Shown in pieces: positions 6,440 through 13,295 of a stretch of DNA of 64,000 nucleotides; position 1 is the stretch's first letter; every line of letters begins with the position of its first letter. The notes under the pieces are model-generated. The model searched no databases. It saw only the letters and a list, made by a program, of their open reading frames with translations, and had not been told where the DNA came from. Location of the stretch: NCBI GenBank assembly GCA_937920495.1, contig CALEUQ010000001.1, forward strand, positions 62,001 through 126,000, written 5' to 3'. Origin of the DNA: an uncultured bacterium (GTDB taxonomy: Bacteria; Spirochaetota; UBA4802; UB4802). Both the position numbers and the translations under genes were made by a program.

Positions 6440-6958
6440 ATGATAGAACAGAAAGATTCATTCAATATTTTTGCAAAAGTTCTCTTTGCTGTGCTGGGGT
6501 TTATAGTTGGGTTTATTGTTATACGTCTCTTTGTTATCCCGGTTAAGATTGGCAACCATCTTATGGAGCCCACTCTGACAATTAATGATTACGTGTGGTT
6601 TTATAAGACAAAAAAAGTTGATTCAGGTTCGATAGTTCTTTATAAAAGCCCTCTTTCAGGGGAGCTTGTAACCAGGGTAATTGCCAGATCAGGTGATACA
6701 GTAGAGATAATAAATAAACAGCTTTATATAAATGGTATAAAAGTATCCCCAGGGTGGGTAATAAAAAAAAGCGATACACGGATATTCCCACCACGGTTTG
6801 TCAACCGAGACAATATGAACGCTATCACAGTTCCTGATGGGCATGTATTTGTGTTGAACGATAATTGGGATACTCCCAGTGATAGCAGGCTGTTTGGAGT
6901 AATAGCAATTGAAGATATAGTTGGGAAATATGCATTCAAGATTTCAATGAAAAAATAA
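6440..6958 (+). CDS. signal peptidase I-like protein lacking both catalytic residues
   Basis: A 172-residue protein (178 from an in-frame TTG at 6422) with an N-terminal membrane segment and the S26 signal peptidase I fold. The Ser box reads NHLMEPTLTIND where active enzymes have SxSMxPTLxxGD, so the nucleophilic serine is leucine (Leu41 from the ATG). The lysine box reads LVTRVIARSGDTVEI where active enzymes have YxKRVIGxPGD, so the general-base lysine is threonine (Thr78). The C-terminal box, VFVLNDNWDTPSDSRLFGVI, is well kept. The fold is therefore conserved while the Ser/Lys dyad is gone. This suggests a pseudoenzyme, perhaps a regulator or membrane factor. The genuine lepB is presumably elsewhere. 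It is coupled to the upstream aminotransferase gene. Confidence 0.85.
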   Translation: MIEQKDSFNIFAKVLFAVLGFIVGFIVIRLFVIPVKIGNHLMEPTLTINDYVWFYKTKKVDSGSIVLYKSPLSGELVTRVIARSGDTVEIINKQLYINGIKVSPGWVIKKSDTRIFPPRFVNRDNMNAITVPDGHVFVLNDNWDTPSDSRLFGVIAIEDIVGKYAFKISMKK

Positions 6959-8147: not shown

Positions 8148-9449
8148 ATGCTTAATAAACAGTATGAAGCAATGGAAGTTAAAAAATTAAAAGAATTGCA
8201 GCGTGAGCGTTTAAAATGGTCGCTTACACATGCGTATAATAATGTACCGTATTATCGTCAAGCATTTGATAAGGCTAAGTTTAATCCTGATAAGTTTTCT
8301 TCCCTTGATGATTTGAAGCATGTCCCATTTTTGATGAAACAAACTATGCGTGATAACTATCCGTTTGGACTTTTTGCAGTGCCCATGGAGAAGGTTGTGC
8401 GCATTCACTCGTCATCGGGAACAACAGGAAATGCCACTGTGGTTGGGTATACAAAAAATGATATTGAGGTGTGGGCTGAAGTGATGGCACGCACTATTGC
8501 TGCGGCAGGTGGCAGTGAAAAAGATATTATTCAGGTTGCATACGGGTATGGGCTTTTTACGGGTGGTCTTGGAGTACATTATGGTGCCGAAAAGTTAGGA
8601 GCCACCGTTATTCCTATTTCGGGTGGCAACACCGAACGGCAGCTTATGCTAATAAAAGATTTTGGCACAACCATGCTGGCCTGTACACCATCGTATGCCA
8701 TTAATATGGCTGATTATGTTGAAAAAAAGATGCCTGACTATGATTTTAAGAAGACAAAGTTGAAAGCAGGCATTTTTGGCGCAGAACCGTGGACGGAGAA
8801 TATGCGTAAAGAGATAGAATCCCGTATGGGTATTGATGCGTACGATATCTATGGGTTAAGTGAGGTGATAGGCCCCGGCGTGTCATGTGAGTGTAGCCAG
8901 AAGTCCGGGTTGCATGTCTTTGAAGATCACTTTTATGTAGAGGTAATAGATCCTGAAACGGGCGAGGTATTGCCTGAAGGAGAAAAAGGCGAGATAGTGT
9001 ATACTTCGCTTACTAAAGAAGCATGCCCTGTCATACGCTACCGTTCACGTGATATCACACGGATTTATCGAGATGCATGCAAGTGCGGACGTACCTTAAT
9101 CAAGATGGAAAAGGTTACCGGCAGAAGCGATGATATGCTTATCATCCGTGGTGTGAACGTATTCCCGATGCAGATAGAGGCCGTGCTCATGGAGATAGAA
9201 GGCACGGAGCCGCATTACCAGATTATCGTGGACCGCAAGGGTGCACTTGATGATGTTGAAATAATGGTTGAGGTAAATGAAAAGATATTTACTGATGAAC
9301 TGGGTGCATTAAAAGGGCTTGCCGAGAGGATTGAACAGCGTATACGCAGTGCATTAGGGATTAGTGCTAAAATTACGCTGGTTGAGCCAAGCACATTGCA
9401 GCGCAGCGAGGGCAAAGCAAAACGTGTAATTGATAAGCGACAGTTATAA
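8148..9449 (+). CDS. paaK: phenylacetate-CoA ligase family enzyme
   Basis: An adenylate-forming ligase of 433 residues, the usual PaaK length. It interconverts aryl-acetate, ATP and CoA with aryl-acetyl-CoA. Family signatures include the [16 protein letters not shown] phosphate-binding loop, YGYGLFTGG, the [12 protein letters not shown] block, and the RYRSRDI and [16 protein letters not shown] segments; the C-terminal ACT-like lobe ends in [11 protein letters not shown]. The start has an AAGGAG site seven bases upstream. The neighbours iorA/iorB produce arylacetyl-CoA from arylpyruvates, so here the ligase may run toward free acid and ATP, as proposed for fermentation of aromatic amino acids; that direction is inference. 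Confidence 0.93.
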
Positions 9450-9479
9450 ATATAATAAAAAATTGTATGGAGGAAAACA

Positions 9480-9911
9480 ATGAACGTTACACAGCTATCA
9501 CTTTTTCTTGAAAATAGACCCGGACATTTGCAGAACGCATTAAAGGTTCTTGCAGATGAAGGGGTAAATATAATGACTCTTACAATCGCTGAAGTTGCGG
9601 ATTTTGGTATAGTGCGGATGATTGTTAACAAGCCGCAGAAAGCCCTGGAAGCGTTGCGGCAGCATAAATTTGTGTGTTCACCAACGGATGTGCTGGCAAT
9701 TGAGCTGGATGATAAGCCAGGTTCACTGCTCAAAGCTCTGGAAACATTTTCAAAACGGAATTTAAACATTGAATATATGTATGCGTTTACTGAAAAACGT
9801 GGTGACAGGGCTGTCATGATATTCAAATTTGCTGATATTGAAGCAGCAAAGAAAGCTCTTCTTGAGGAAGGGTTTAACGTCGTTAAAAAGATTGATCTGA
9901 TTGGAGAATAA
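9480..9911 (+). CDS. tandem ACT-domain protein
   Basis: A 143-residue protein made of two ACT domains, each starting with a beta strand and a GHL/GSL helix start: LENRPGHLQNALKVLADEGVN and LDDKPGSLLKALETFSKRNLN. ACT domains bind small ligands, usually amino acids, and regulate linked enzymes. Genes of this type are regularly found with paaK and iorAB, so a regulatory or sensing role for aromatic compounds is likely but unproven. It begins 30 bases after paaK with an AGGA site and is followed directly by iorA. Confidence 0.85.
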   Translation: MNVTQLSLFLENRPGHLQNALKVLADEGVNIMTLTIAEVADFGIVRMIVNKPQKALEALRQHKFVCSPTDVLAIELDDKPGSLLKALETFSKRNLNIEYMYAFTEKRGDRAVMIFKFADIEAAKKALLEEGFNVVKKIDLIGE

Positions 9912-9915
9912 GACA

Positions 9916-11472
9916 ATGCAAAAAAAGGTTATGCTGGGCAATGAAGCAATTGCCCGTGGAGCATATGAAGCAGGGTGTAATGTTGCAGCTGCATATCCCG
10001 GAACACCCAGTACTGAAATTCTGGAAGCGATAGCTGCCCAATACCCCGATATAAAGGCACAGTGGTCGCCAAATGAAAAAGTGGCTCTTGAGGTGGTTGC
10101 AGGAGCATCGGTTGCTGGTGCGCGGGCCATGGCAGCCATGAAGCATGTTGGGCTTAATGTTGCTGCTGATCCACTGTTTACATTTTCATACACTGGTGTG
10201 AATGGTGGATTTGTCATTATCAATGCAGATGACCCGGGTGCGTGGAGCTCACAGAATGAACAGGATAACAGGCATTATGCACGCGCTGCCAAATTGCCAA
10301 TGATTGAACCAACAAGCCCACAGGAAGCGCGTATGTATACCAGGCTGGCATTTGACTTGTCAGAACAGTTTGACCGCCCTGTAATAGTTCGCATTACCAC
10401 ACGTATAGCCCATTCACAGGGTATTGTCACACTTGAAGAGCCCTGTAAACCTGAATTAAAACCATTTGTGCGCAATCCACAAAAATACGTGATGATACCT
10501 GCACATGCACGTCCGCGACATGTGTTTATTGAAGAACAGATGCTTAAATTAAAAGAATATTCAAACAACTGTGAGCTTAATACTATAGAATGGAATTCAA
10601 CAAAACGAGGCATTATTACCAATGGTGTTGCGTACCAGTATGTAAAGGATGTATGCCCCGATGCTTCAATTTTAAAGATTGGTGTTGCATGGCCGCTTCC
10701 TGATGCAAAGATACATGAATTCTGCAGTAAGGTTGAAGAATTGTATGTGGTTGAGGAGTTAGATCCATTTATTGAGGATTATGTACGTGCGCTGGGTTAT
10801 AAACCAGTAGGCAAAGAAATAATTCCAATATGTGGAGAATTAACGCCAGAAATAATTGATATGGCTCTTAACAAAAAGAGACCAAAAAATGAAATCCCTG
10901 TCTATTCGGGTTCTATACCTGGAAGACCGCCTGCATTATGTAAAGGATGTCCTCATGGATTTGTGTTTGAGGTATTAAAAAAACTTGATGTGGTTGTCAA
11001 CGGCGATATAGGCTGCTATACGCTGGCAGTATTGCCACCGTATTCTGCGATGCACACACAGGGATGTATGGGTGCAAGTATTGGTATGCACCTTGGTTTT
11101 GAAAAAGCACGCGGTGATGAAATGGCCCGCAATAGTGTTGCAGTTATTGGCGATTCAACATTTGTTCATTCGGGAATTACTCCGCTCATTGATCTGGTAT
11201 ATAATAAAGGTACGGGTACCGTAATAATACTGGATAATCGTGTCACTGCGATGACAGGTCATCAGGATCACCCTGCAACCGGGAGGACATTAAAGGGTGA
11301 AGAAACCCATGAACTTGATCTGGAGCTTTTATGTAGGGCGGTTGGTGTAAAAAGAGTAAGAAAGATTGATCCCAAAAATATGGAAGAATTTGAAAAAGCG
11401 GTGCGTGAAGAAATAGCAGCAAAGGAGCCTTCAGTTATTATTTCGTCACGAAAATGTATTCTGACCAAATAG
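9916..11472 (+). CDS. iorA: indolepyruvate ferredoxin oxidoreductase, alpha subunit (no ferredoxin domain)
   Basis: IorA binds thiamine diphosphate and oxidatively decarboxylates aryl-pyruvates with CoA and ferredoxin. The N-terminal pyrimidine-binding domain opens with GNEAIARGAYEAGCNVAAAYPGTPST. The TDP/Mg site is in the GDIGCYTL and GDSTFVHSGI region, with ILDNRVTAMTGHQDHP after it. The ATG at 9916 follows GGAG (9903-9906); a TTG at 9901 is also in frame. The product has about 518 residues and stops just after IISSRKCIL, where family members of about 600 or more residues continue into an eight-cysteine two-cluster ferredoxin domain. No such domain is encoded downstream, so electrons must leave by another route or partner. 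iorB follows. Confidence 0.92.
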   Translation: MQKKVMLGNEAIARGAYEAGCNVAAAYPGTPSTEILEAIAAQYPDIKAQWSPNEKVALEVVAGASVAGARAMAAMKHVGLNVAADPLFTFSYTGVNGGFVIINADDPGAWSSQNEQDNRHYARAAKLPMIEPTSPQEARMYTRLAFDLSEQFDRPVIVRITTRIAHSQGIVTLEEPCKPELKPFVRNPQKYVMIPAHARPRHVFIEEQMLKLKEYSNNCELNTIEWNSTKRGIITNGVAYQYVKDVCPDASILKIGVAWPLPDAKIHEFCSKVEELYVVEELDPFIEDYVRALGYKPVGKEIIPICGELTPEIIDMALNKKRPKNEIPVYSGSIPGRPPALCKGCPHGFVFEVLKKLDVVVNGDIGCYTLAVLPPYSAMHTQGCMGASIGMHLGFEKARGDEMARNSVAVIGDSTFVHSGITPLIDLVYNKGTGTVIILDNRVTAMTGHQDHPATGRTLKGEETHELDLELLCRAVGVKRVRKIDPKNMEEFEKAVREEIAAKEPSVIISSRKCILTK

Positions 11473-11483
11473 AGGGTAATGGT

Positions 11484-12059
11484 ATGAAGAATGTAATTTT
11501 TGCCGGAGTCGGTGGACAGGGGGTTATACTTGCAAGTAAAATTTTAATGCAGGTAGCCATGAATGCCGGATATGATGTCAAGGAATCTGAGGTCCATGGC
11601 ATGGCACAGCGGGGCGGTAGTGTTGATTGCCATGTGCGTTTTGACAAACAGGTATATTCTCCATTAATTGAAAAGGGTACCGCTGATTTTGTAGTTGCCC
11701 TTGAACTGCTTGAAGCAATGAGAAAGCTGGAGTATCTATCACCTCAAGGGGTTCTTATTGTGAATAGATTAAAAGTAAATCCTGCTCCGGTTGAGGCAGG
11801 GATAGCACAATACCCCGATGATATTGAAAGCTGGCTATGCAGTAATGTCCCTCACTGCCATGTGGTTGATACAGCACAGGCTTTGAAGGAAGCTGGATCC
11901 AGCAGAGCACTCAATATAGTAATGCTGGGTGTGTTATCAAATTTTTTGGAATTTGAGCAGAGAGCCTGGGAAGAAGCTATACAACAGAGTGTAAAAGAAA
12001 AATTTGTAGATATGAACATTAAAGCCTTTTATCTGGGGAAGAGTATTCCGGTTGTATAA
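11484..12059 (+). CDS. iorB: indolepyruvate ferredoxin oxidoreductase, beta subunit
   Basis: IorB is the gamma-type domain partner of IorA. The product has 191 residues from the ATG at 11484, preceded by GAGGG; an in-frame ATG at 11454 lies inside iorA and is less likely. The start MKNVIFAGVGGQGVILASKIL is the classic opening of the POR/KOR gamma fold, followed by ESEVHGMAQRGGSVDCHVRF, also diagnostic. It closes the paaK-ACT-iorA-iorB operon. No hairpin terminator is visible after it. Confidence 0.93.
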   Translation: MKNVIFAGVGGQGVILASKILMQVAMNAGYDVKESEVHGMAQRGGSVDCHVRFDKQVYSPLIEKGTADFVVALELLEAMRKLEYLSPQGVLIVNRLKVNPAPVEAGIAQYPDDIESWLCSNVPHCHVVDTAQALKEAGSSRALNIVMLGVLSNFLEFEQRAWEEAIQQSVKEKFVDMNIKAFYLGKSIPVV

Positions 12060-12938: not shown

Positions 12939-12947
12939 TTAATAACG

Positions 12948-13295
12948 TGGAGACGGCGGGAGTCGAACCCGCGTCCTGCAACACACACCTACAGTCTCTA
13001 CATGCTTATCCTGTTCGTTTATCTTTTCACTGGTTAGGGGAACAGGAACCCGCCTCAGTGAGCAGATCCCTAAAGTTTTGCTATTAAGCCGGGATCAAAA
13101 CTTGATAGCTATCCTCTGTATCTTACGCCCTTATCATCCCCAGAGGAGCAGGATCGATAAGAACGCCGCTGCTTTTAAGCAGCGAGTGCTAAATTATTGT
13201 CTGCACTTATTTTAAACCTGCCGGTTTTACGAGCCAGCAGAAACTCGGCATGCAACTGTAGAGGCGCCATTGCAGTCGAAACCAAGATCGTCCCC
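12948..13295 (-). ncRNA. ssrA: transfer-messenger RNA
   Basis: tmRNA rescues stalled ribosomes by acting as alanyl-tRNA and then as a short mRNA for a degradation tag. On the minus strand, the 5' end GGGGACG pairs with the 3' CGTCTCC to make the acceptor stem (one G-U pair), and the TTCGACTC T-arm is at the 3' end, with the conserved GATCTTGGTTTCGACTGC near the 5' end. The tag frame runs from 13204 down to 13175 and encodes ADNNLALAA and a TAA, within the expected hairpin. The tag ends in LALAA, the usual ClpXP/ClpAP signal; clpA is also in this window. The genomic 3' end reads A then CGT, so CCA is not encoded. Confidence 0.95.

Follow-up and report, generated by a model that had tools for sequence, protein, structure and literature searches.

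In the literature that we found, inactive homologues of signal peptidase I are isolated Gram-positive cases, namely SipA and SpsA. SipA (LepA), which is encoded in the pilus operons of Streptococcus pyogenes, has Asp and Gly in place of the catalytic Ser and Lys (PDB 4N31 and 4K8W). It is the solved and functional precedent for such a protein, was proposed to bind rather than to cut, and is required for pilus polymerization (PMC4049620). SpsA of Staphylococcus aureus is an inactive second type I signal peptidase that lacks two catalytic residues, and its paralogue SpsB is active and essential (PMC12445088). Our literature search found no spirochaete counterpart. Here we describe a short gene of peptidase family S26 on a stretch of 64,000 nucleotides (the window; contig CALEUQ010000001.1, positions 62,001 to 126,000 of the forward strand) from a draft genome of an uncultured bacterium of the Spirochaetota (3.02 Mb in 86 contigs). 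Neither residue of the Ser/Lys dyad is left in the protein encoded by this gene (Table 1), which, judged by sequence comparison, appears to be one case of a phylum-wide family with repeated loss of the dyad.

The active site was mapped by alignments to solved signal peptidases and by a profile-profile alignment (hhalign) of five congeneric sequences against 13 LepB proteins of the same order, with positions Ser90, Lys145, 270, Gly272 and Ser278 numbered as in Escherichia coli. The genus profile matched the LepB profile with a probability of 99 and E=2e-18. In both cases Leu41 aligned with the catalytic Ser and Thr78 with the catalytic Lys, which bears out the reading of an earlier note on this DNA that the nucleophile had become Leu and the lysine Thr. 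The loss exceeds the account of that note, as two further sites are replaced: where LepB has Ser90, Lys145, Gly272 and Ser278, the window protein has Leu, Thr, Asn140 and Pro146. In active enzymes, Gly272 gives space for the catalytic Lys and Ser278 holds it in place (PMC4049620). The catalytic Ser and Lys are both replaced in all five species of the genus (genomes G000 to G004), which read L/L/I/L/L at the Ser site, T/G/G/S/S at the Lys site and N/N/C/N/N at the Gly272 site, with Pro at the Ser278 site in each of them. The dyad of a neighboring genus is replaced too, by other residues. No Ser or Lys near either site is conserved among the five congeneric species, residue 40 being H/A/S/S/V and residue 75, the nearest Lys, being E/K/K/N/K. 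A shifted alignment onto an adjacent Ser or Lys was rejected, since Ser40 is found in just two of the five species and Lys75 in three. Sequencing error was rejected as well, because the replacements recur in four other genomes of the genus, which carry L/I and G/S/S/G at the two positions. The window protein has no canonical active site, and going by its residues, cleavage of signal peptides is not to be expected from it.

The open reading frame is unbroken, starts with ATG and has 172 codons. Its product matched Peptidase_S26 (PF10502, E=3.5e-28) and signal peptidase I (TIGR02227, E=1.8e-31), both above the cut-off and over nearly the full length, and the solved structures that it matched included signal peptidase IB of S. 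aureus as well as two entries from S. pyogenes that lack the dyad themselves, SipA (4n31) and LepA (4k8w). As in signal peptidase I/LepB (MEROPS S26A; TIGR02227), the framework, the anchor and boxes B, D and E are recognizable. The C-terminal D-S-R-x-x-G box and the membrane anchor are both kept, as the earlier note had claimed. Residues G20, G24 and R29 of the anchor are invariant or nearly so across the order, and the anchor is expected to have its N terminus inside and its C terminus outside, as in signal peptidases with one transmembrane segment. Nevertheless, the protein does not belong among the active signal peptidase I enzymes, because the catalytic Ser of box B and the catalytic Lys of box D are both absent. 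A profile search found relatives in public contigs of 'Spirochaetota bacterium A05DMB-I-13' (87%), UBA2205 (67%) and 'Spirochaetes bacterium M55B154' (33%).

Like the window protein, SipA has the S26 fold without Ser and Lys; Gly272 is replaced by Asn in both proteins, and Ser278 is replaced in both. Unlike SipA, whose gene shares a Gram-positive operon with genes for pilins and for a class B sortase, the window protein belongs to a two-membrane spirochaete and its gene adjoins neither a sortase nor a pilin, the neighbors being genes for an aminotransferase and a HEAT-repeat protein. The catalytic loss is also a separate one, within the Spirochaetota, and by its context the window protein is not a SipA. 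With SpsA it shares the arrangement of an inactive second copy beside an active paralogue. However, SpsA is a single case and its gene adjoins spsB, whereas lepB is unlinked here and the short paralogue is spread over the phylum with many separate losses.

An active lepB was looked for in the same genome, and a normal, active-looking copy (SMEDTL, IKRCIA) was found on another contig. The main LepB of the order, mostly 356-425 amino acids long, keeps Ser, Lys and Ser278 in all 40 complete copies; a 41st copy ends early, after its Ser, and stands outside this count. LepB accompanies the short protein throughout the order, and also in seven other genomes in which a long LepB was read. One extra S26 copy (L157, on G033:C8) has AMEDTL at the Ser site and keeps KR at the Lys site, which suggests a Ser-only loss in a further paralogue.

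Of the 46 genomes of the order, 41 gave a short S26 orthologue in a profile search, and a single best copy was taken from each. Among these, Ser is kept in 27, Lys in 19, both in 17 and neither in 12. When 38 short proteins from other families of the phylum, in several further orders, were added to give a phylum set of 79, Lys was lost in 55, Ser in 36 and both in 34. Lys is absent throughout families f11 (A/S/G at the site) and f34 (G/R), and the AT-rich family f15 (GC content ~25%) is the sole family with a complete catalytic site throughout (5/5). Among the 79 members, conservation reaches 96-100% at M42, P44, R79, D148, S149, R150 and G153, and it extends to the members without Ser or Lys. 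Loss of Lys is associated with loss of Gly272 (Fisher p=6e-8) and of Ser278 (Fisher p=4e-7) among the 79, kinship being uncorrected in both tests. In the trees, the short proteins of the order form one clade (support of 96-98% in the Shimodaira-Hasegawa-like approximate likelihood ratio test, SH-aLRT) that is separate from the LepBs of the same order (100%). Once LepBs from other orders are included, the wider short clade across orders has 80% support, and orthology between orders is therefore likely but not firm. The minimum number of changes is 5 for Ser and 4 for Lys within the order, and 14 and 6, respectively, over the phylum set. These counts carry no direction, and reading the changes as losses is natural because the long LepBs have Ser and Lys.

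A second order (families f22, f38, f41 and f46) shows a different outcome: all 17 complete sequences have a Cys at the Lys site and a second Cys at position 270, together with Asn or His at 272. Neither Cys occurs in any of the remaining 69 family members, and about half of the 17 sequences have no cysteines in the frame besides this pair. Residue 270 of E. coli LepB packs close to Lys145. The simple reading is therefore that the two cysteines are joined across the former active site, and on these sequences a disulfide is likely. We tentatively propose, as something that may well not hold, that an old second signal peptidase-like protein was repeatedly turned into a non-proteolytic envelope factor and that in one order the disulfide (145/270) shuts the site.

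The ratio of nonsynonymous to synonymous substitution rates (dN/dS; pairwise, NG86) of the short gene is 0.08-0.22 within the genus, values that are rough because many synonymous distances were saturated, and 0.12-0.22 in three close pairs (dS 0.26-0.70). Dyad-bearing short orthologues of another genus have a dN/dS of 0.11-0.30. Since the ratio is no higher in the gene without the dyad, the short gene is not decaying. About half of the residues are invariant across five congeneric species at 67-87% identity, and none of the 41 short-gene copies of the order has an internal stop. The dyad-less short gene is under purifying selection. The earlier note had proposed selection for a non-proteolytic function over decay; selection is borne out by dN/dS and the unbroken frames, on which grounds a pseudogene was rejected, and the non-proteolytic role is supported by inference. 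That the gene is being lost after catalysis ended is highly unlikely. The long stems that lead to the dyad-less genus (1.57) and to a dyad-less pair in family f3 (1.63), compared with a median end branch of 0.42, would agree with decay, as would the lack of a copy in one sister genus and the fact that dN/dS exceeds that of LepB in the same genus (0.007-0.041), but the intact frames, the low dN/dS and the shared invariant residues argue against it. The long stems fit a burst of change after which constraint resumed.

Our analysis points to the window protein as probably a membrane-anchored pseudo-signal peptidase, that is, a non-proteolytic, peptide-binding adaptor in export and assembly. Its ancestor would have been a working second signal peptidase, because some members of the order, and one other family, still have Ser and Lys. 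LepB would do the cleavage, while the short protein would have retained the membrane position and the peptide cleft. It would be anchored in the inner membrane, its domain facing the periplasm, and would bind a signal peptide or an exported segment without cutting it. As a chaperone or adaptor, it may help one or a few envelope proteins to be exported and assembled, comparable to the proposal for SipA. A somewhat different possibility is that the short protein works with or regulates the cell's own LepB without being catalytic itself, pairing with the enzyme or competing for its substrates and thereby tuning cleavage. Active and inactive subunits are paired in other protease complexes, an intact LepB is always present alongside the short protein in the order, and the two share a sequence framework and anchor. 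However, the two genes are on different contigs (lepB on C5 and the short gene on C1 in G000), and LepB is present in some genomes without the short protein, making this role rather unlikely.

Several observations weigh against the adaptor. The authors of the SipA study were unable to demonstrate binding of a peptide or partner in vitro (PMC4049620). As to a conserved peptide-binding cleft, M42, P44 and the DSR box are kept, but the AlphaFold2 model of the window protein, run with three relatives, had a mean predicted local distance difference test score (pLDDT) of 49.5 and was too poor to be used. The neighboring genes differ between clades and none is common to all; hence the synteny of the short gene, which is kept within clades, backs orthology within clades but names no partner. 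The short gene is also dispensable in G012 (96% complete) and G024, both of genus g9 in family f3, since they are without it. The sister genus of g9, g4, has dyad-less copies (D/V, N/S), and g9 may have lost catalysis and then the gene. Finally, the protein could still have enzymatic activity through a rebuilt active site, in which other cleft residues (or the Cys pair) would carry out a new cleavage or transfer chemistry. In line with such a site, the DSR-x-x-G box, R79, R123 and D124 are strongly conserved in the order and the replacements are consistent within some clades, but the residues at the two dyad sites are non-catalytic and vary within the genus (L/I; T/G/S), and no new conserved Ser or Lys adjoins either site, so we regard it as quite improbable.

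The aminotransferase gene ends 14 bases upstream of the short S26 gene. In the window genus and its sister genus, an aminotransferase (PF00155) gene precedes the S26 gene and a convergent gene for a HEAT-repeat protein lies downstream. Further along the window, positions 8148-12059 encode an AMP-binding (phenylacetate-CoA ligase-like) enzyme, an ACT-like protein and two indolepyruvate-type oxidoreductase subunits. This run suggests aromatic amino acid fermentation, and the aminotransferase may belong with it. A transfer-messenger RNA gene with the tag ADNNLALAA was found at 12945-13295 on the reverse strand. In family f7, divergent flaA (flagellar sheath) genes lie close upstream of the short gene in 19 of 19 genomes, and in the other families flaA is located elsewhere. 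FlaA was rejected as a dedicated partner because it is found in 45 of the 46 genomes regardless of the dyad state and adjoins the short gene in f7 only; it is a lead, not support. Reading the sequences by eye, the neighbors in f34 resemble RNase D and a protease of the DegP type, and a neighbor in the order with the Cys pair resembles lysine 2,3-aminomutase.

Table 1. Features of the short S26 gene in the window, with related loci elsewhere (handles as used for loci and genomes)
Feature	Position	Strand	Basis or remark
S26 (signal peptidase I-like) gene without the dyad, 172 amino acids	6440..6958	+	PF10502 and TIGR02227 matches
Single N-terminal membrane anchor, residues 12-33	6473..6538	+	hydrophobic run in sequence
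Leu41 (NHLMEPTL) at catalytic Ser site (E. coli Ser90)	6560..6562	+	both alignments
Thr78 (LVTRVIA) at catalytic Lys site (E. coli Lys145)	6671..6673	+	both alignments
Asn140 at Gly272 site	6857..6859	+	sequence alignment
Pro146 at Ser278 site	6875..6877	+	sequence alignment
DSRLFG box, D148-G153	6881..6898	+	D148 and R150 100%, S149 and G153 99% (79 family members)
Short S26 loci of family f7	L041-L075, e.g. L050		divergent flaA genes and a ~900-amino-acid protein nearby
Cys-pair sequences	L158-L174 (order of G095), e.g. L151:3313-3852	-	invariant Cys at Lys site and at 270

Compared with the described cases, what is new is how broad the family is, that the dyad was lost repeatedly, and that a variant with a cysteine pair exists. 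The automatic annotation 'signal peptidase I' is wrong for many genes of the short paralogue. If the window protein and its relatives are indeed non-proteolytic adaptors, the family would be a natural experiment on the roles of the signal peptidase fold beyond cutting, and it could reveal which spirochaete envelope process requires the short paralogue. If the disulfide proposal is true, a constitutive, possibly redox-sensitive peptide-binding module would exist across much of the phylum.
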